Of a DNA stretch of 64,000 bases, positions 3,564 to 58,449 are shown one piece after another. The DNA lies in the NCBI GenBank assembly GCA_002688035.1, contig NZBU01000001.1, positions 1 through 64,000 on the forward strand, in the 5' to 3' direction. The DNA comes from Candidatus Iainarchaeum sp. (GTDB taxonomy: Archaea > Iainarchaeota > Iainarchaeia > Iainarchaeales > GCA-2688035). The first letter of the stretch is position 1. Every line of letters begins with the position of its first letter. The translations under genes were made by a program, and so were the position numbers. The notes beneath the pieces are model-generated. The model was not told the DNA's origin, ran no database searches, and worked only from the letters and a program-made list of their open reading frames with translations.

Positions 3564-4055
3564 TTATTTCTTTTTCCTAAACAATAAAGTCGGCAAAGCG
3601 ATTGCTGCGATTAAAGCAATTATTCCTGTTGAGATTTCCATTTCACTGAATTCAAATTCTATTCCTGCGAATTCTGGAATTTTGCAATACCCCACGGCAT
3701 TGGTGGTGCAGGTGGCGCCTCCAGTGACATAACAAGGCTTGCACCAGCTTGTCATACCACCAGTATATTTGCATTAATTGGTGCACGTGCCTACTGTTAT
3801 TGGGGTACAATTTGTAACGGTTGTTCTTAAATCAACTTTACATTTCGTAGCACTTACGCAATTTGATGCTGACCACTTGCATTGTTTATAACCGCAGTCT
3901 TTCATTGTTGCAAAATAGTTTTCGCATGTTGTTTCGGGTTTGGCTGCGCAACCCCCAACGTCGGTAGTGCCAACGCAATCAGGGTATGTTCCAGAGAAAG
4001 CGCTATTTCCAAACAATGTCAGAAAAACCAGCAACAACAGAATTTTTACTTGCAT
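3564..4055 (-). pseudogene. Cys-rich secreted protein with PEF-type C-terminal sorting signal, interrupted by one in-frame TAA
   Basis: ORFs 3774-4055 (signal peptide + Cys-rich) and 3564-3755 (Cys-rich + IPEFAGIEFEFSEMEISTGIIALIAAIALPTLLFRKKK) are in the same frame, separated by TAA at 3774-3776 and six sense codons (CKYTGG). Confidence 0.85.
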
Positions 4056-4080: not shown

Positions 4081-4094
4081 AATTTAATTGTTTC
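4081..4094 (-). promoter_or_regulatory. Shared 14-bp element GAAACAATTAAATT (coding strand), likely BRE/TATA promoter
   Basis: About 26 nt upstream of the ATG at 4055; identical 14-mer upstream of the two other PEF-tail genes (24591-24604, 51279-51292). Confidence 0.65.
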
Positions 4095-24033: not shown

Positions 24034-24567
24034 TCACTTCTTTTTTCTGAACAAAAAAGTCGGCAAAACAATTGCTGCAAGCAACGCGATTATTCCTGTT
24101 GAAACTTCCATTTCATTGAATTCGATTCCTATGAATTCGGGGACGCAGACATTGGCTCCAGTAGTTCCACAGCCAAGTGTTGGATTAGCCCACCAACAGA
24201 ATTTGCTTGGAGTCCCTGGTTGAAAGTATACTACGCAGTCAGTATAGTTGGTTTGATTTGCACAATTTGGCGTTGAGGTATGTTTTCCACCAATAGTGTA
24301 TTTCAAATAGCAGTTTGTTCCCGACTCCTGTCTACATTTTCCTGTTCCCGTTCTCCAACCACACCTACGACCCGATGCCACAGGCCCTGTGCTAAGTATC
24401 GAATAATAATTTGGGCAATCCCCCTCTGCCAAAATCTGCCAGCAAGCCTGATTAGGAGTGCCTGTAGTTGTTGTTTCAATATAATTACTACAAGTGATTG
24501 CAAACGCCGTTTCTCCAAACAACGCCACTAGCACCAAAACCAAAACAAACAGACTTACAGCCCTCAT
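24034..24567 (-). CDS. Cys-rich secreted protein with PEF-type C-terminal sorting signal
   Basis: Signal peptide; CPNYY motif; tail VCVPEFIGIEFNEMEVSTGIIALLAAIVLPTFLFRKKK. Confidence 0.88.
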   Translation of the reverse strand: MRAVSLFVLVLVLVALFGETAFAITCSNYIETTTTGTPNQACWQILAEGDCPNYYSILSTGPVASGRRCGWRTGTGKCRQESGTNCYLKYTIGGKHTSTPNCANQTNYTDCVVYFQPGTPSKFCWWANPTLGCGTTGANVCVPEFIGIEFNEMEVSTGIIALLAAIVLPTFLFRKKK

Positions 24568-24590: not shown

Positions 24591-24604
24591 AATTTAATTG
24601 TTTC
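24591..24604 (-). promoter_or_regulatory. Shared 14-bp element GAAACAATTAAATT (coding strand)
   Basis: About 24 nt upstream of the ATG at 24567; identical to 4081-4094 and 51279-51292. Confidence 0.65.
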
Positions 24605-24669: not shown

Positions 24670-26694
24670 TTAGAACAACACGTCAAACGCTTTCTTGCCA
24701 TCCATATCTAATAAGAATTTGTATCGTGCATCAACATAGTCCTGGATTTTTTGCACTTCTTCTTCGCCCAAATGTTTGAAGCGGCCTTGCAGTTGTAGGT
24801 ATTCAAGAACAGGCTTTGGTTTCTCTACCTTTTGATTAATTTTTACCACACCGTTCTCTATCTCATAAAGAGGGAAAACTCTTGTTTGAATTGCAAGCTT
24901 GCTTAACTCAATAGTGTCATCAGATTTACAGTGCCAGCCGACTGGGCAGACACAATAAGCATGCAAGAAGCTTGCGTGGGGGATTGCAAGCGCTTTTTGC
25001 ACCTTTGTCTTTAAATCCAAAAGGTTTGCAGGGGACATTGAAGCAACATACTTTATCCCATGAGACGCAATGATATAGGGCAAGGGTTTTTTTGGTTCCT
25101 GTTTACCCGGAATCTTTTTTCCGGCAGGACTTGTAGTAGTTGAAGCATATGGGAATGTTGCACCACTTCTCTGCACCCCGGTATTGTGTACAACAAACCC
25201 GTTTGCAATAAAATTATGTTCTCCTTCGACTCTCAGGTCAAGTGTTGGTTCAAGGCGCTTCCGTTCTATTGACCTTATTTTTTTCATTTCAAAGTTTTTG
25301 TTCCCATATAGGAAATCTCTGTATTTATTCTGGGATCTGTATTTTGAGTTCGTTCCCTTCTTTAGGCTGAAGCAGATATAGCCATAAGTTGAAGCTTTTT
25401 TCAAAGCCCTGTAAACAACTTTGGTGCCCTTTGCTTTTGTCTGCTGGTGGATCTTCCCAACTCTTACATTCATTGTTTGCAGTAATAGTCTCAGCGTCTG
25501 CAACAGCTCTTTGCTTGCTGAAACATAACGGTAACTGTTTCCTATTTTGTAACCGTCGGAAAGCAACAGACCTTCAATAAACGCTTTCTTTTCTTCAATT
25601 GGAAGAGTAAAAACCCATTCAGGAACAACTTTGTTTTTTGCCCCCTTTCCAAATCCAAGCGATTCAACGAACTTGGCGGCATTGATTGAACCTAAATAGA
25701 CTTCGTTCTCGTTTTCCCTTGTTGCATCAACACTAAACACTCTCCTGATAAGTTGCTTTACTGGCACTCTTGCCCTATTACCCTTCGGAACTGAAAATCC
25801 GATTTCTGCCTTCTCAACTCTTACCCAGCCATCTCCGACATACAAGCCAAGCAGTTTCATCAAATCCTTCGAAGACTTTTTTGGAATTGTAACTTCCCTG
25901 ATCCTGTTTACTTTATAATCTCCTTTCTTAGACAACTGTATCTTTGGAAAAATATGTGATTTGCCTTCAAGCCCCTGTTTGAGTACAACGACTTCGTCTC
26001 CCGCACGCAATTCTTCAACGGTTTTCCAGACAAGTTCGCTTTGTTTTCCTCTCCCGTTTCTCTCCAAAACCAGGAATGGGTGATTTCCAGTAGCTTTTAT
26101 TGTCTGGGAATCTGTGTTTATTTCAAAGATTCTTTTTTTTCCATTGTCAAAAATTCCCGTACATTTTTTCAAAACAAGCTTGTGGTTTTTCTGGCTGAAA
26201 GCATAAACCATATCGCCCACACCAATATCAATTATTCTCTTTAAGCCGTCCTTGGTCATTATAAGCGAGTCAAGAGCCAAACAATTCATGTAAGCCTCGT
26301 TGTCTGTTGCAATATATGTGAACTTATGTCCGCGTTCTAATGCACCACTTAGTGCGCCGAAACCAATGTCAAAGCTAGCGCCGTCTCCACCCATTGCAAT
26401 AAGATTAACTTTTTCTCTTTTACCCTGAGCTTTTAGACCGGCGTCAATTCCTGAGGCAATTGCCGCAGCGTTCTCAAATGCACCGTGCACCCATGGAACC
26501 CGCCATGCGCTTTGAGGATAGGGTGTTGAAACAACTTCCATGCAGCCTGTTGCCTGTGCAACAATTGTTTTTGGGCCGGCAGCCTTCATTATATGCCTTA
26601 AAACAAGTGCTTCTCCGCACCCTGCACAAGCTCTGTGGCCTGACGCAAAGTATTCTTCATAATTAATGCCTTTCAAGTCCTTCACATCAACCAC
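24670..26694 (-). CDS. porB: Pyruvate/2-oxoacid:ferredoxin oxidoreductase beta subunit, intein-containing
   Basis: Exteins: [53 protein letters not shown] / [22 protein letters not shown]. Confidence 0.95.
25183..26283 (-). mobile_element. Intein with LAGLIDADG homing endonuclease domain (367 codons)
   Basis: Starts [13 protein letters not shown]; block [18 protein letters not shown] motifs LLGLYVGDG and [10 protein letters not shown]; ends [13 protein letters not shown] before Thr+1. Confidence 0.95.
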
Positions 26695-27818
26695 TCCCTC
26701 GACTGCTTACCCTTCTCCAAATCAGTGAAAACAGATTCAATGTGTTTAAGGGTAATATCCTTTCCACCAAGTCCTGCAATATAACCAAACAGTTTCAGTT
26801 CAGGAGTGATTGCGCTAATCTCGGTAAACAATGGCCCATTGGATCCGAGTGAAATATGCCTGTCCAATACTGCGAGTCCCTTAAGATTTTTCACTGCGGC
26901 CTGAAGCTCTTTGACAGGGAATGGTCTAAAGCTCCTGAGCCTTATAACACCAACCTTTTTGCCTTTTGCCCGCAACTCCTCAGCCTTTGCCTTTGCTGTT
27001 CCACAAAGGGTTCCCATTCCAAGGATTGCGTATTCCGCATCACCCATATCAGTTAACTCAACAAGGCCATCACCATAACCTCTTCCAATCTGTTTTTTGT
27101 AATATGAATTAGCTTTTTTAATCACATCCAATGCAGCCGTCATTGCGTCCTGCTGCTGCTTCTTGAAGCCCATGAAGCTGTCAGGGAAACCAATTGGCCC
27201 AAATGTCTTTGGATTGTTCACGTCAAGTGTGTCCTCCCTCGTGAAAGCAGGAAGGAATTTGTCAACCTGTGCTTGTTCAGGCACATCAACATTTTCAAAA
27301 ACATGGGTTAGTGTGAATCCATCAAGGCACATCATTGCAGGCAAGGAAACTTTTTTGTCCTCCGCAATTTTGTAGCATTGAATCATAGTGTCAACGCACT
27401 CTTGACTTGACTCTGCATACAACTGAATCCAACCCTGGTCTCGAGCTGAAACAGCATCGCTATGATCATTCCAAATGTTTATTGGCGCCGCCAAAGTTCT
27501 GTTCGCAACAGCCATTACAGCAGGGAGGCGCATTCCGGAGAGTATTGGTAAAATCTCATACATTAGCGCAAATCCATTGCTGCTTGTCGCAGTAAAGCTT
27601 CTTGCACCAGAAAGAATTGAGCCAATGAGGGCTGAGGCAGCGGAGTGCTCTGATTCAACATGAATCATTTCTGCGTCCATTTCGCCGTCAAAAATGTAAT
27701 CCGCGATTCTTTCAGGAATGTGTGTTGAGGGGGTAATAGGATACATTGGGCAAACCTTTACCCTGGCAAGCTTTACAGCTAGTGCAACTGCTTCACTTGC
27801 TTCTACAACAGATTTCAT
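26682..27818 (-). CDS. porA: Pyruvate/2-oxoacid:ferredoxin oxidoreductase alpha subunit
   Basis: [57 protein letters not shown]. Confidence 0.96.
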
Positions 27819-50749: not shown

Positions 50750-51229
50750 CTATCTCTTCTTGAACAGCCACATCGACAGGGCAATTGCCACAAGCAAAGC
50801 AATTATTCCTGTTGAGAACTGCATCTCTGGGAAATAGATTCCAGCAAATTCCGGGACACATTTAGCATTAGTTGTGCAAGATTTAGACCCAGGTGTTAAG
50901 GAACAAACATATTCTGTTGCACCTGTTTTATAGTAGTTTGGACAAGTTCCTGTGGCAAGAGCCTTACAATTTGAAGTGGTTTTTGACCTAACCACGTCAC
51001 ACAATGGAGTGCAGGCAGTGACACCTTGTGCACAGATAGGCCTATTCCCAGTTATGGGGTCAATAATGCAATTTACGAAGCTAGCACCAAGGCCAGCTTC
51101 TCCATAAAACAAACTGCAAGTTGTAGTATCAGATCTTTTTGCAGTGCAGCCACCGCCAGCCCAAGACAAAGTGCAAGCAGCACCCAAAACATTCACTGCT
51201 AAGAATAACAGCAAAATCAATACAACCAA
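50750..51229 (-). CDS. Cys-rich secreted protein with PEF-type C-terminal sorting signal
   Basis: Hydrophobic N-terminus (true start may be slightly upstream), GTCPNYYKTG, tail KCVPEFAGIYFPEMQFSTGIIALLVAIALSMWLFKKR. Confidence 0.87.
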   Translation of the reverse strand: MVVLILLLFLAVNVLGAACTLSWAGGGCTAKRSDTTTCSLFYGEAGLGASFVNCIIDPITGNRPICAQGVTACTPLCDVVRSKTTSNCKALATGTCPNYYKTGATEYVCSLTPGSKSCTTNAKCVPEFAGIYFPEMQFSTGIIALLVAIALSMWLFKKR

Positions 51230-51278
51230 GATTTTTGCTTTAATGATTACCCCAATAAATAATATACCCCTGTTCTAG

Positions 51279-51292
51279 AATTTAATTGTTTC
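51279..51292 (-). promoter_or_regulatory. Shared 14-bp element GAAACAATTAAATT (coding strand)
   Basis: Upstream of 50750-51229; identical to 4081-4094 and 24591-24604. Confidence 0.6.
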
Positions 51293-52255: not shown

Positions 52256-53731
52256 TTACTGCAAATACCCAAGTGCGCGCAGCCTTTGGAATGTTTCCAC
52301 ATCAAATTCTGGAGTCGCTCCTTCCACACTACCACTGTAGTTCTCTATGTGTTCGATTAGTTTTTCTTCTAAGCGAAGCGCCTGCTCGTGTTCCTCATCA
52401 ACCAAATTAATTGTTTCCTGCGGATCATCACAGAGATTGAACAACTGTGGTTCATCCTGGTAGTGGTCATAAATGTATTTCCAGCATTCCTCTTGCACAG
52501 CACTCTTGTAGTATGGCGAGATTATTGGATAGAGATGGGTGAAAGCAAACTGCCTGAAGGAATTTACGTCTCCCTGCATTAGGGGCAGGAGTGAAACGCC
52601 TTGTGCTTTCTCAGTACTTGGGATTCCAAGAACGTCAAGAACAGTAGGCATTAGGTCAACGTGCTCTACAAATGAATCAACCTTTTTCCCCTCTGGAAGT
52701 GTTCCAGGGAGAGACATTACAAGAGGGACATGGGTTTCTTGGTCATAGAGTGTTCGGGCATGCTCATAGAGAACAGGGAAAGACATTCCTCTATAGAAAG
52801 GGGTTTCGTGTTCTCCGAACTGCTCACCGTGATCTGAAGTGTAAACTATTAATGTGTTGTCCTTTACACCGAGCTCCTCAAGTTTGTCAATAACCATCCC
52901 AATGTGATCATCGCCAAACCTTATCTCCCCATCATAGCGAGAAATTACTTTTCTTATCTCAGTGAAATGTTGAGGGTATAGCTCGTCGTACATTTTGTTG
53001 TAGTCAACATACTGTTCGGTAATGCCATCATGCTCCATATAATTGTCATGCGGATCATACAAGTGGAACCAAAGGAAGAATTTTCCATTGTTTGCGTTTT
53101 CCTCCAGCCAATCCAAAGCAAAAGGAGTGGTTTCCGCAGCGAGCCTTACTCCTGGCGGAAAATTGTAATAGTCAAAACCCTGACTCAAACCAGAGTCCCA
53201 ATCCATCATTCCAACAGAAATTACTGCAGCAGTATTGTAACCATTTGCTTTTAGCACTTCAGCCATCATCAAATACTTTTCAGGAATAGTAACAAAACCG
53301 CTTGAGTTTGCCCTCATAGGTCTTGGTTGATAAACAAAAGGATATTGTGACGACATCATTGAGATGTGGCTGCTTGTAGTGTATGGAACAACAGAGTAAG
53401 AATTCTCAAATAGCACGCCATACTCTGCCAGCTCGTCAAAGACAGGGGTTGTTTTTCTTGGATAGCCATAGGCGGACATATGGTCATAGCGCGTAGTGTC
53501 AAGGACAATGAATAATACATTTGTGTTCTGTGTACTGCTTTGAGTTTGCATTGGCACTTTTTCAATTGCTTCTGGTGCAGCGGCTGTAGGTAATGCAACA
53601 GCACCAGTGTGCACTAGCAAAACAAAGCTCGCACTGAGCAGCAACAATACTACAAAAGCTATTGCCTGATTCTTAGTTTCTTCTTTAATTCTTTCACCCT
53701 CTTTTCCATGAATCCAAGTGTCAAATACCAA
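52256..53731 (-). CDS. Membrane-anchored sulfatase/alkaline phosphatase-superfamily enzyme
   Basis: NVLFIVLDTTRYDHMSAYGYPRKTTPVFDELA, IVYTSDHGEQFGEH, HVDLMPTVLDVLGIP; start may be downstream of the listed ATG. Confidence 0.9.
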   Translation of the reverse strand: MVFDTWIHGKEGERIKEETKNQAIAFVVLLLLSASFVLLVHTGAVALPTAAAPEAIEKVPMQTQSSTQNTNVLFIVLDTTRYDHMSAYGYPRKTTPVFDELAEYGVLFENSYSVVPYTTSSHISMMSSQYPFVYQPRPMRANSSGFVTIPEKYLMMAEVLKANGYNTAAVISVGMMDWDSGLSQGFDYYNFPPGVRLAAETTPFALDWLEENANNGKFFLWFHLYDPHDNYMEHDGITEQYVDYNKMYDELYPQHFTEIRKVISRYDGEIRFGDDHIGMVIDKLEELGVKDNTLIVYTSDHGEQFGEHETPFYRGMSFPVLYEHARTLYDQETHVPLVMSLPGTLPEGKKVDSFVEHVDLMPTVLDVLGIPSTEKAQGVSLLPLMQGDVNSFRQFAFTHLYPIISPYYKSAVQEECWKYIYDHYQDEPQLFNLCDDPQETINLVDEEHEQALRLEEKLIEHIENYSGSVEGATPEFDVETFQRLRALGYLQ

Positions 53732-55254
53732 AACAAAACAAAGTATGCAACAAAGACCAATAGGCCTGTTGCCTCATTAAGCATTCTGGCTGTATCAGGG
53801 GATACAAATGCTCCCAGAACCAATACAATGTAAAGACGCAGGACATTTACCATAAATGCGCCGAACGCTCCCGGGATATACATTACAAGCGCCTTCTTTA
53901 AATGCAGATACTTCCAGTTGAAGAGAAGTAGCACAGAGAAGGCAACAAGGAAATATATTACATTGTTTGCCCCTGCGCTGGCCTCACTAATCCTAATTGC
54001 AAACTGGTTTAATTGGACTGTGAGCTGTGCTCCCTGCAAAGTGAAAGCAGCATTAAAACCGCTGACTTTGAGCAGGAAATAAACAAAGAATGTAGTGCTC
54101 TCTGCAAGTAGCTTTGTACTTTCCTCTACTACGAGCGCGAACCAGTAGACTAATCCTCCTGCCAAAATCGAGAAAACCAGTTCCTTTCTAAGCTTTGAAA
54201 GAGCAAAGCGCGTGAAAGTAATTCCGAACACTGCAAGGAACAGCAGGGCGACCGCTAAAAACTTTAGTATGAAACCAAGTTTGAACAATGCCGAGAATAG
54301 GAAGTTGTTTGATTGTTTTGTATACATCAAGATTTCGCCGTCAACTTCTTTCCAAGAGGAACCATCAAACAGAGTGCTGTTGTCTCGCGCAAAACCTTTT
54401 CCAACAACAAAGCCGACATTTTCCTCAATCCCTTCACTCGTTTTTGCGAGGAGCTCGATTTTGTTGCTTCCTTGTTTTAAGTGTTCTTTGGAAATTGTGA
54501 TTTCGAGCCAACCGCTCACATGCTCAGGAAGAGAAGCATACTGTTCAGTAACATTGTAGTCATGACCATTCACTTGAAGAAAAACCTCGGTGTAAGGATT
54601 GAAAACATTGTCAAAAAATAGTGAGCCGTGCCAGACACCCTGCCAAGTAATTGTAAGGTCTTCTGCTGGCTGGATCTCAAGAATAACTTCTTTTCTAAGT
54701 TTTTGGTCGCGCGCTTCGAGAAAAACCTCACTTATTTGCAGTGAGTCCGCTAGCAGCGGAATTGTCAGGAAACGCCCTGCATCAGGATTAAGTGATTCTG
54801 AACCAGGATTTGAAACGATCATTGGACCCCGCTGTCGCCCTATATTAGCGTCAGGAGGAAGTTCTTGCAGTGCAAAAGTACCGTTAACCTCTGCGCCCTC
54901 GCGAAGCATTCCATCAAAGTCTGAAAGGGAGAAAGCATAAGCTGAGAACAATAAGAGTGATGCAATTAGCAAGTAAAGGGAATTCTTTTTGCTGAATTTT
55001 AATTTTAATTTTTTACCCGATGCTACTGCAAGGAAAACGAAAAGGGAAATTGCTATTCCAGAGAGCCAAATAAATCTTGAAATATTTAGGGCTATAGAAA
55101 TCTTTTGAAACAAATCGTTTCCAGGAACGAAAAATGAAAACGCTAGCGGAAATAAAACAAAGAGCGCTGCAAGGAAAGCCAGAAGTCTGAATAGGATTGG
55201 GTGCAAGCCCACTTTTATTATGATCTCTGGTTGCTTCATTAGAATACCTTCCAA
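53659..55254 (-). CDS. Archaeosortase/exosortase-like membrane protein with altered active-site residues
   Basis: Core aligns with 56163-57638 (ISEASAGANNVIYFLVAFSVLLLFNWKYL..KALVMYIPGAFGAFMVNVLR), but the Cys position is Ser and the His is absent. Confidence 0.82.
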   Translation of the reverse strand: MEGILMKQPEIIIKVGLHPILFRLLAFLAALFVLFPLAFSFFVPGNDLFQKISIALNISRFIWLSGIAISLFVFLAVASGKKLKLKFSKKNSLYLLIASLLLFSAYAFSLSDFDGMLREGAEVNGTFALQELPPDANIGRQRGPMIVSNPGSESLNPDAGRFLTIPLLADSLQISEVFLEARDQKLRKEVILEIQPAEDLTITWQGVWHGSLFFDNVFNPYTEVFLQVNGHDYNVTEQYASLPEHVSGWLEITISKEHLKQGSNKIELLAKTSEGIEENVGFVVGKGFARDNSTLFDGSSWKEVDGEILMYTKQSNNFLFSALFKLGFILKFLAVALLFLAVFGITFTRFALSKLRKELVFSILAGGLVYWFALVVEESTKLLAESTTFFVYFLLKVSGFNAAFTLQGAQLTVQLNQFAIRISEASAGANNVIYFLVAFSVLLLFNWKYLHLKKALVMYIPGAFGAFMVNVLRLYIVLVLGAFVSPDTARMLNEATGLLVFVAYFVLFWYLTLGFMEKRVKELKKKLRIRQ

Positions 55255-56102
55255 AATCTTCGCTTTTCAATCTTGTGGTCAATTATGCTGCTCTTGCTCA
55301 AAAGTTCATCGATAACTTTATAGTCTCGCCAACCAATAAATATCCGAGGATATTTTCCTATTAATTTTAGGGCCCATTTTCTATAAAAAAGGAGGACATT
55401 TTTGTAGTTTGGTTTGCCACTAATATCTCCACTGGCATGCTCATGGTGTATACCATTTGCATCCCCCGAAAGCCAGATTGATTCACCAGAGAACTTTGCT
55501 TTTAAGCAGAGGTCAACATCTTCCAAACCATAAAAGAATCGTTCGTCAAACCCGCCTAGCTTGTTGAACAGGCTTTTTTTTATCATCAAGCAGGCTCCGG
55601 TTACAACAAGTTGCTTGGAGTCCCGACCAAAAAGACCTGACAAGAATTTTGGGTCAAAGCCGTAGAATGCGTGCATTGGCAAAAGGTTTGAGCGAAAGAG
55701 AACACCAACATGCTGGATTGTTCCATCAGGAAAGAAAAGGTTTGTTCCAACAATGCCGGCCTCACGCTCATTCATTGTTTTTATCATTGATTCAAGGCAA
55801 CCATTCTCAAGCAAAACATCGTCGTTTAAAAAGCAAAGTATTTCTCCCTTGCTTGCTTCTACTGCTTGATTGTTACTGTAACTGTAACTCTCGTTTGATT
55901 CGTTAAGAATTATCTTACAATTCTTCTTTTTGGAAAGCCTGTTGCAGAGCTCCCTTGTTTCAGGAGTTGGGTCGTTTGCAACAATTATATGTTCATAGTT
56001 AAGCTTTGTGCCTGCCTCAAGCACTTTCACGCTTTGTTCAAGTAAATCAGGCCTGTTTCTCGTTGGCGTGATAACGCTTACAATTGGCTTTGTCTCCAAC
56101 AA
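55239..56102 (-). CDS. GT2 family glycosyltransferase
   Basis: VSVITPTRNRPDLLEQSVKVLE, CFLNDDVLLENGCLESMI, FYGLEDVDLCLKAKFSG. Confidence 0.95.
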   Translation of the reverse strand: MLETKPIVSVITPTRNRPDLLEQSVKVLEAGTKLNYEHIIVANDPTPETRELCNRLSKKKNCKIILNESNESYSYSNNQAVEASKGEILCFLNDDVLLENGCLESMIKTMNEREAGIVGTNLFFPDGTIQHVGVLFRSNLLPMHAFYGFDPKFLSGLFGRDSKQLVVTGACLMIKKSLFNKLGGFDERFFYGLEDVDLCLKAKFSGESIWLSGDANGIHHEHASGDISGKPNYKNVLLFYRKWALKLIGKYPRIFIGWRDYKVIDELLSKSSIIDHKIEKRRFWKVF

Positions 56103-56162: not shown

Positions 56163-57638
56163 TTAGTCTCGGCGAATGAACTTCATTACAAGTGGCCAGA
56201 ATATTACAAAGTAAATTATGAACAGGAACATTGCCGCATTGGTGTGGAAAGTATTTATCGCAAACTCCTTGTTGTAATAGGCTCCGATTAGAAGTATTAG
56301 GGCTACACGAATAATGTTTACAATGAATACTCCAAGCAAGCCCGGAATATAGAGAATTAAAGCGCGCCTTAGGCTAATGCGATGCCAGTTAAAGATTATT
56401 AGTGCAGTGTAAGCAATCAAGAAATATGCCATGCTTTCAACACCGGAACAAATATCTGCAATTGAAACAACAAAACCGTTTATGCCAAGTCTTGGTAAGT
56501 TCGGATTATTGAGATTCATTACAGGGTTGAGCATTAGAACCTTGTAGATATTGTAAATTACTGTGGTAACAATAAATGAAAAGAACTGCCAGTAGCCCTG
56601 CAGGAACGTTCCAAACCAGTAAACCGCGTAAGCGAAAAAGGTACTGAACGCAAATTCTTTCTTTGCATTAAAAATAATTTGTTTAAGGAAGTTCAATCCA
56701 AAAACTGCAAGGAAAAGGAACAGCAAGCCCAATATTTTAAACACAAACCCAAACTTGAAAAGAGTGGAGAACAAAATATTATTTGGTTTGTTTACAAACA
56801 TAATATATTCATGGTATGGGCCAAGTGCTCTATAGCCACCGTTTCCTGAGATAAAACTGTCGTTTGTAAAGTAGGTTGCCTGAGCCAACAAACCTATTCT
56901 TTCACCAGCAGGCCCATTGTCCTTACGAAGTGTAATTGTGTTAAGCCCTGATTTAAAAAAACTTGCAGGAACATTTACTGCAAGCCACTCGATTTGGTTT
57001 TTCTCGAGGCCGGCGTAATACTGACTTATATCAAATTCGTTGTCGTTGACAATAAGGCTTACTTGAGAATTGAATTCTGAATCAGGGCCTCCTTGCCAGA
57101 CAGCAAGGAACTTTATTTCAGTATCCGTTGTTGGCTGTGCATCTAACCTAAGTCGCTTGAGAAAAAATTCGCCCTTTCGATTTAGCAAGTGTACAGCCAC
57201 AGGAACATGGTCATCCAAAGCACCGTGGGCTATTAGACGCGAAGCGTCCAAGTCAATGGTTGTTTCTTTGTCCAGCTGCACAAGTTCTACACCCTCAACA
57301 AGAATAGGATTGATGTCGAGTTGAGTGTAAAAGAGCGCAGCAAACAATAGAATAGAGAGCAAAGCAAATTTTGCATTGGACTTATTAAATGGAATCAACT
57401 CAAATTTTTTTGGTCGAACTAAGAATATTAGAATCAGAACTGAGAATGCAGTAAAAATGTAAACTTTCTGGAGCAGGAAGACTGTTCGCATCTTAGCCTC
57501 AAAATCAAAGCCCGCGACAAAAAATGAAAATGCAAGGGGCAGAAGAATAAGAAGAATTAGCAAGTAAATAAGGGCTCTTGATATTGAAGAATCGAAAAGA
57601 TTGATTTTTGGAATGGAAAGCTTTGGAATGCGAAACAT
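56163..57638 (-). CDS. Archaeosortase/exosortase family protein with extracytoplasmic domain
   Basis: VSIADICSGVESMAYFLIAY (Cys), IPGLLGVFIVNIIR (Arg), NTFHTNAAMFLFIIYFVIFW (His), multi-TM. Confidence 0.9.
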   Translation of the reverse strand: MFRIPKLSIPKINLFDSSISRALIYLLILLILLPLAFSFFVAGFDFEAKMRTVFLLQKVYIFTAFSVLILIFLVRPKKFELIPFNKSNAKFALLSILLFAALFYTQLDINPILVEGVELVQLDKETTIDLDASRLIAHGALDDHVPVAVHLLNRKGEFFLKRLRLDAQPTTDTEIKFLAVWQGGPDSEFNSQVSLIVNDNEFDISQYYAGLEKNQIEWLAVNVPASFFKSGLNTITLRKDNGPAGERIGLLAQATYFTNDSFISGNGGYRALGPYHEYIMFVNKPNNILFSTLFKFGFVFKILGLLFLFLAVFGLNFLKQIIFNAKKEFAFSTFFAYAVYWFGTFLQGYWQFFSFIVTTVIYNIYKVLMLNPVMNLNNPNLPRLGINGFVVSIADICSGVESMAYFLIAYTALIIFNWHRISLRRALILYIPGLLGVFIVNIIRVALILLIGAYYNKEFAINTFHTNAAMFLFIIYFVIFWPLVMKFIRRD

Positions 57639-57690: not shown

Positions 57691-58449
57691 TTATTCCAAG
57701 ACCTTATCAATAGCCTCTTTCAAAACCTTGAAATCAACTTTGCTTTTCTCCGTGTTAACGAAGACTGTGGGGGTTCCCCTTATCCCTATTGAAGACCCGT
57801 AGGAAATATCCCTCTCTAGCTCTACCGAAGTTTCCTTATTGCCAAAACAGTTGTTGAAGGAAGCTGTGTCAAGGCCGAGGTCTGAGGCAAATTGTTTCAA
57901 GAGCTCTGCACTCTTTTCTTTATCTCGTTCTTTAGACCAACCGGCAGCATCACCCTGCTTTTCAAATAGTATATCGTGGTATTCCCAAAACTTTTCCTGC
58001 CTGCCGGCACAAATAGCTGCAATGGAAGCGTTCTCAGCATTACGATGAATAGATTTCAGGGGGAAATGCCTAAATGCAATTTTAACTTGAGTTGGATAAG
58101 CTTCTCTCACTTGCTCTAACACTGATTGAACTTTTTGGCACCAAGGGCACTGGAAGTCCTCGAAAACAGTTATTAGGACAGGGGCATCTGGATTGCCCAA
58201 GAGTTCAGCCCCTGCCTCGAGCTCGGCGATAGTTGGTTCTTTCAACGGTACTGCCTCCTTAGCAGCTTTTACATTTTTAGCACGCTCATCAAAGTAGCGC
58301 TCAATTGCATCGTCCATTTTTTCAATTGCAAAATTTGCTTTCTTGTTCACAAAATAACCTGTTACTCCTAAAGAAGTAACAATTACTAATGCTAGAAATA
58401 TAATAGAAAGAGGCGTGGCATATTTTGAGACCGTACTTTTATAATTCAT
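57691..58449 (-). CDS. DsbA-like thioredoxin-fold oxidoreductase, membrane-anchored
   Basis: VLITVFEDFQCPWCQKVQSVLEQV, RGTPTVFVN, N-terminal TM. Confidence 0.95.
   Translation of the reverse strand: MNYKSTVSKYATPLSIIFLALVIVTSLGVTGYFVNKKANFAIEKMDDAIERYFDERAKNVKAAKEAVPLKEPTIAELEAGAELLGNPDAPVLITVFEDFQCPWCQKVQSVLEQVREAYPTQVKIAFRHFPLKSIHRNAENASIAAICAGRQEKFWEYHDILFEKQGDAAGWSKERDKEKSAELLKQFASDLGLDTASFNNCFGNKETSVELERDISYGSSIGIRGTPTVFVNTEKSKVDFKVLKEAIDKVLE

Follow-up and report, generated by a model that had tools for sequence, protein, structure and literature searches.

A genome-wide family of Cys-rich secreted proteins with a PEF-type C-terminal tail and a candidate archaeosortase encoded near one of its members

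The 64-kb stretch of DNA analysed here (hereafter the window) comes from a genome whose genes mark it as probably archaeal, and it encodes three members of a multi-copy family of Cys-rich proteins that carry a signal peptide at the N-terminus and a shared C-terminal tail made of a PEF motif, a hydrophobic helix and a basic end. We consider it probable that these proteins are substrates of a lineage-specific archaeosortase/tail system that would cleave, attach and display co-regulated and recombining Cys-rich bodies at the cell surface, a 491-residue protein encoded in the same window being the likeliest enzyme. The family genes of the window and their promoter elements are:

24034..24567, minus strand: focal family gene, intact, 177 residues, Cys-rich secreted protein with signal peptide and PEF tail
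24591..24604, minus strand: promoter element GAAACAATTAAATT of the focal gene, starting 37 bp upstream of its ATG
3564..4055, minus strand: second family member, tail intact, reading frame broken by a stop
3774..3776, minus strand: in-frame TAA, codon 94 of the second member
4081..4094, minus strand: promoter element GAAACAATTAAATT of the second member
50750..51244, minus strand: third family member, probable start at ATT 51242-51244 and not at TTG 51229
51279..51292, minus strand: promoter element GAAACAATTAAATT of the third member

The sequence-only reading had reported three dispersed genes with Cys-rich bodies and near-identical tails, and all of them are present at the coordinates first given; it took them without their strand, and the minus strand is the coding one in every case, the plus-strand reading of 3564-4055, 24034-24567 and 50750-51229 having been rejected because stops interrupt its translations. 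Two of the three also needed correction. The second locus is not one open gene, owing to the in-frame TAA, and in the third, as drawn (50750-51229), the TTG lies inside the signal peptide. The leader of the paralogs (M-R/K-A-K-I-L..) aligns with the third member from ATT 51242-51244, which is probably its start. ATT, ATT and ATA occupy the position of the paralogs' ATG in three members (window 51242-51244; contig C8 of the source genome G000, L012; contig C7, L014), two of them with an SD-like GGGGT/GGTG shortly upstream, a pattern that suggests rare start codons or start loss. Elsewhere in the window, an intein that carries a LAGLIDADG domain splits a protein with a TPP-enzyme C-terminal domain (24670-26694), which adjoins a pyruvate:ferredoxin oxidoreductase alpha-like gene (26682-27818).

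Over 36-40 residues, the tails of the two other window members share 81% and 67% identity with that of the first, and PEF, GI, F, EM, STGIIAL, AI, LF and K are invariant among the three. A profile of these tails, searched against the 745-kb assembly (61% complete), recovered 15 strong copies, with E between 1e-17 and 1e-27, plus a divergent one (C5:6532), so that the three loci first recognized are the window's share of a much larger family. The consensus reads PEF-x-GI-x-F-(x)n-EM-x2-(S/P)TGIIALxxAI-helix-RKKK, with 10-15 residues between PEF and the (S/P)TG at which the helix starts. Fourteen of the 15 strong copies can be read from leader to tail, the fifteenth (C5:2-88) ending at a contig edge; these members are 146-191 residues long, begin with a hydrophobic leader and contain 10-16 Cys ahead of the tail, and PEF is invariant in all 14. 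The divergent tail stands behind a protein that matches CBM96 (E 4e-8), with an in-frame TAA directly before the tail. Over the aligned tails of the 14 paralogs pS is 0.65 and pN 0.13; with pS near saturation and pN this low, the tail is under strong purifying selection rather than conserved by chance. C-terminal motif, helix, basic cluster, N-terminal signal peptide and many copies per genome, which are marks of CTERM sorting signals in general, are all present, and the tripartite archaeosortase-substrate layout first proposed is borne out, as far as sequence can tell, in a genome that also encodes exosortase-fold enzymes.

Family members further share a promoter element. In the window, exactly three sites match the 14-mer GAAACNATTAAATT perfectly, each starting 37-48 bp before one family gene, and RAAANNATTAAATT has 12 exact matches in the 745-kb genome, 11 of them directly upstream of family genes, including that of the CBM96-type protein; the reversed RAAANNATTAAATT, used as a control, gave 2 matches genome-wide. 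The twelfth match (C2:68279) does not precede any plus-strand gene and was taken as chance. In its exact form the element is specific to the tail family, and its sequence is suggestive of an archaeal BRE and TATA box. The gene of the 491-residue enzyme (56163-57638) lacks it.

In contrast to the tails, the bodies have diverged widely, with a mean identity of 30% among paralogs. They gave no significant match in Pfam, and an AlphaFold body model from two sequences reached a pLDDT of 41, a fold that is not usable; their Cys residues are probably disulfide-bonded. In the closest pair (C7:9228/C12:83098), the codons of identical residues differ at 17 of 91 positions before the tail vs 16 of 29 within it (p 3e-4), and the tail DNA of C7:9228 has its closest counterpart in the tail of the 50750 gene, not in that of its body's closest relative. 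This contrast and the mismatched nearest relative point to recombination between body and tail. In four members a single in-frame stop breaks a frame that is otherwise open and still ends in a conserved tail:

window 3774-3776, minus strand: TAA, second member
contig C7, L068:8850-9362: member with TGA
contig C7, L068:13640-14220: member with TAA
contig C5, L067:6661-6663: TAA

In one stop-bearing copy, C7:14090, the ATG is lost as well and the frame extends beyond the usual end. These members are probably decaying copies; programmed read-through of the stops was rejected, decay by point mutation being simpler and C7:14090 combining a stop, a lost start and an overrun.

A cluster of genes close to the third member, whose end lies 80 bp away from the 50750 gene in its drawn extent, encodes the candidate enzyme, its paralog and further proteins:

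56163..57638, minus strand: archaeosortase-family protein, 491 residues, candidate sorting enzyme, with Cys (CSG), Arg (NIIRV) and His (TFHTN)
53659..55254, minus strand: paralog, 531 residues, same architecture, Cys replaced by Ala and His motif lost (LNEATG)
55239..56102, minus strand: GT2 glycosyltransferase, flanked by the two archaeosortase-like genes
52256..53731, minus strand: sulfatase-superfamily protein (PF00884) with N-terminal hydrophobic segment
51310..52203, minus strand: GT2 glycosyltransferase adjoining the third family member
57691..58449, minus strand: DsbA-like thioredoxin with N-terminal hydrophobic segment, adjoining the 491-residue enzyme gene

The nearby enzyme, the in-frame stop, the genome-wide size of the family and the shared promoter had all been left out of the sequence-only reading. 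The PF09721 search of the genome retrieved three archaeosortase-family proteins, in the window and on contigs C5 and C11; the degenerate paralog comes in addition to these. The 491-residue protein belongs to the superfamily by TIGR04178 (47.2 bits, cut-off 23) and PF09721 (44.6 bits, cut-off 25.7), and its Cys, Arg and His motifs are conserved in a second genome, G001. Its paralog scores 25.6 bits, narrowly over the cut-off of 23 for the archaeosortase/exosortase superfamily, and in two genera it has ASAG where CSG, and LNEATG where FHTN, would stand; it is predicted to be inactive as an enzyme. The G001 counterpart of this paralog (L064:7264-8568) has its 5' part in a separate frame. No model of the named subfamilies (ArtA-F, pacearchaeosortase, heimdallarchaeosortase) scored above cut-off in the four proteins scanned. 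A structure model of the 491-residue protein from two sequences is poor as a whole (pLDDT 44), with a better-supported beta-sandwich at residues ~149-251. In fold comparison this sandwich is closest to carbohydrate-binding modules (CBM36, E 4e-4, TM to target 0.54), no more than a lead towards a carbohydrate-binding-like domain. The DsbA-like protein might form disulfides in the Cys-rich bodies. The C5 enzyme (C5:46557-46985, about 165 residues) carries Cys/Arg/His and lies among CDP-archaeol synthase-, SecDF- and SppA-like genes in G000, and partly in G001; the third protein (G000:C11:10898-11452, L066) is found among pilin-like and TadC/ATPase-like genes (all these neighbours named by sequence inspection), a context that suggests sorting tied to a pilus-like system.

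Several known sorting systems offer terms of comparison. Archaeosortase C is the partner of PEF-CTERM, and archaeosortase A that of PGF-CTERM (PMC5244752); tripartite tails confined to a lineage have been read as marks of undescribed sorting systems (PMC3237569). The tail described here shares with PEF-CTERM/archaeosortase C (TIGR03024/TIGR03762) the PEF motif, the helix, the basic end, the archaeal setting and a partner of exosortase fold, here a candidate one. However, TIGR03024 had no match in the genome at E 0.001, nor in the control genomes, and against 13 tails its best E was 0.011; on member 1 (14.3 bits, cut-off 23 bits) it aligned residues 15-38, that is helix and basic end, leaving the PEF at 4-6 upstream of the match and hence outside the modelled 25-residue helix region. 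The early remark that this tail departs from PEF-CTERM therefore holds, and no curated NCBIfam CTERM model scored above cut-off on it. Nor do the enzymes fit archaeosortase C, the 491-residue protein giving no ArtC match and the C5 enzyme a weak one (30 bits, cut-off 100). By sequence, the tail would work like a PEF-CTERM-type system, yet it is outside the PEF-CTERM family as defined. The PGF-CTERM proteins of Haloferax volcanii have a tripartite C-terminal signal too, lipid attachment comes after cleavage in the case studied, and Cys173, Arg214 and Arg253 are critical in ArtA (PMC9263693); their motif is another one, the third critical residue is Arg whereas the 491-residue enzyme has His, and the ArtA model is absent from the NCBIfam matches of this enzyme. 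Its second-best NCBIfam match is the exosortase E/protease of VPEID-CTERM (TIGR04162), likewise a large protein with an exosortase domain, but its 45 bits are far under the cut-off of 150 and cover the exosortase domain only, the extra part here being a predicted beta-sandwich. The GlyGly-CTERM/rhombosortase system provides a parallel in its many substrates alike in the tail only, its single enzyme and its link by phylogenetic profile (PMC3237569), with enzyme and motif unrelated to the present ones.

Tail and 491-residue enzyme are both narrowly distributed. A class-wide search with the tail profile found only the source genome positive among 87 genomes (46 genera), and a scan of one genome per species over 84,980 species, with narrow patterns that reach close relatives only, added a single locus, L021, whose tail gene is frameshifted; viral contigs searched held no tail relative. 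Tails occurring mainly in genomes without an archaeosortase would have spoken against sorting, as the sequence-only reading pointed out, and this was not found. The bin of L021, the only other strong tail (bacterium ARS1290), has bacterial genes and no detectable archaeosortase. It was rejected as a tail-bearing genome without enzyme: its contig is archaeal by its archaeal-type ATPase operon, is best read as misbinned, and is thus uninformative on enzyme absence. L146 (NZBZ01000013.1), a contig in this bacterial MAG, holds the A-type (archaeal-type) ATPase operon and the broken tail gene. Among 77 genomes searched, the full-length 491-residue type, accompanied by its paralog, is restricted to G000 and G001, with partial matches in the exosortase domain region in G071 and G030. 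Within the taxonomic family, of which 18 genomes were covered, the PEF tail is likewise confined to G000 and G001; the G001 tail CVVPEFTDLPFGGSAGILAVIGAVAAALFFSKRKQK is one divergent copy on a small secreted Cys-bearing protein, first matched below threshold (E 0.0145) and then included in the profile that recovered it strongly. Tail and 491-residue enzyme therefore go together in 2/2 vs 0/16 genomes of this family (Fisher p 0.0065), weak statistics given two genomes and one divergent tail.

Since the genome encodes two further archaeosortases, on C5 and C11, and short C5-like ones are common in the taxonomic family, either could be the tail enzyme. Processing of the tails by the C5 protein as a housekeeping archaeosortase, with the 491-residue pair doing something else, is possible, although we think it unlikely: this protein carries Cys/Arg/His, its synteny is conserved between G000 and G001, and a single enzyme commonly serves many substrates (PMC3237569), but most of the genomes with such short relatives, which are most genomes of the taxonomic family, have no PEF tail, while the 491-residue type tracks it. 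Less probable still is that the tail is a plain membrane anchor, a stop-transfer helix with a positive end that stays uncleaved. Helix and basic end alone suffice to anchor a protein; such an anchor needs no PEF, GI, EM or STGIIAL, yet these have been kept while synonymous sites approached saturation, and the archaeosortases of the genome also argue against it. We can give hardly any credence to recent gene duplication as the cause of tail conservation, for even though leader, promoter and tail clearly show the genes to be paralogs, the near-saturated tail pS of 0.65 contradicts it, and the divergence of the bodies to a mean identity of 30% speaks against it.

In the archaeosortase system that we favour, a Sec-type signal peptide would export each Cys-rich protein and the C-terminal tail would keep it in the membrane until an archaeosortase cut near PEF and linked the body to some molecule of the membrane or envelope. 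The likeliest cutter would be the 491-residue protein, with its paralog devoid of an active site as a partner; the common promoter element would co-express the members, while bodies diverge, recombine and get lost. Protist Cys-rich variable surface proteins, such as Giardia VSPs and ciliate antigens, combine many variable bodies with one conserved C-terminal tail. As a tentative and rather doubtful extension, the present family could be a co-expressed, recombining, nonsense-prone repertoire of disulfide-rich surface proteins resembling those protist systems, served by a dedicated archaeosortase with a carbohydrate-binding-like domain and a dead partner, and in which stops ahead of the tail could even let members alternate between release and anchoring; the likeness is one of analogy only, no homology having been found, and there is here no evidence of one-at-a-time expression.

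Our literature search on archaeosortases in DPANN archaea, and on Cys-rich surface proteins there, retrieved nothing specific. If the proposed system is real, it would add a distinct type of archaeosortase, an enzyme with a predicted beta-sandwich and an inactive paralog, together with its own tail, and an archaeon with a small genome would devote many genes to a repertoire of Cys-rich surface proteins that is co-regulated and diversifies fast, contact with other cells or viruses being a plausible role. Tail, promoter element and enzyme would provide three independent handles on this system.
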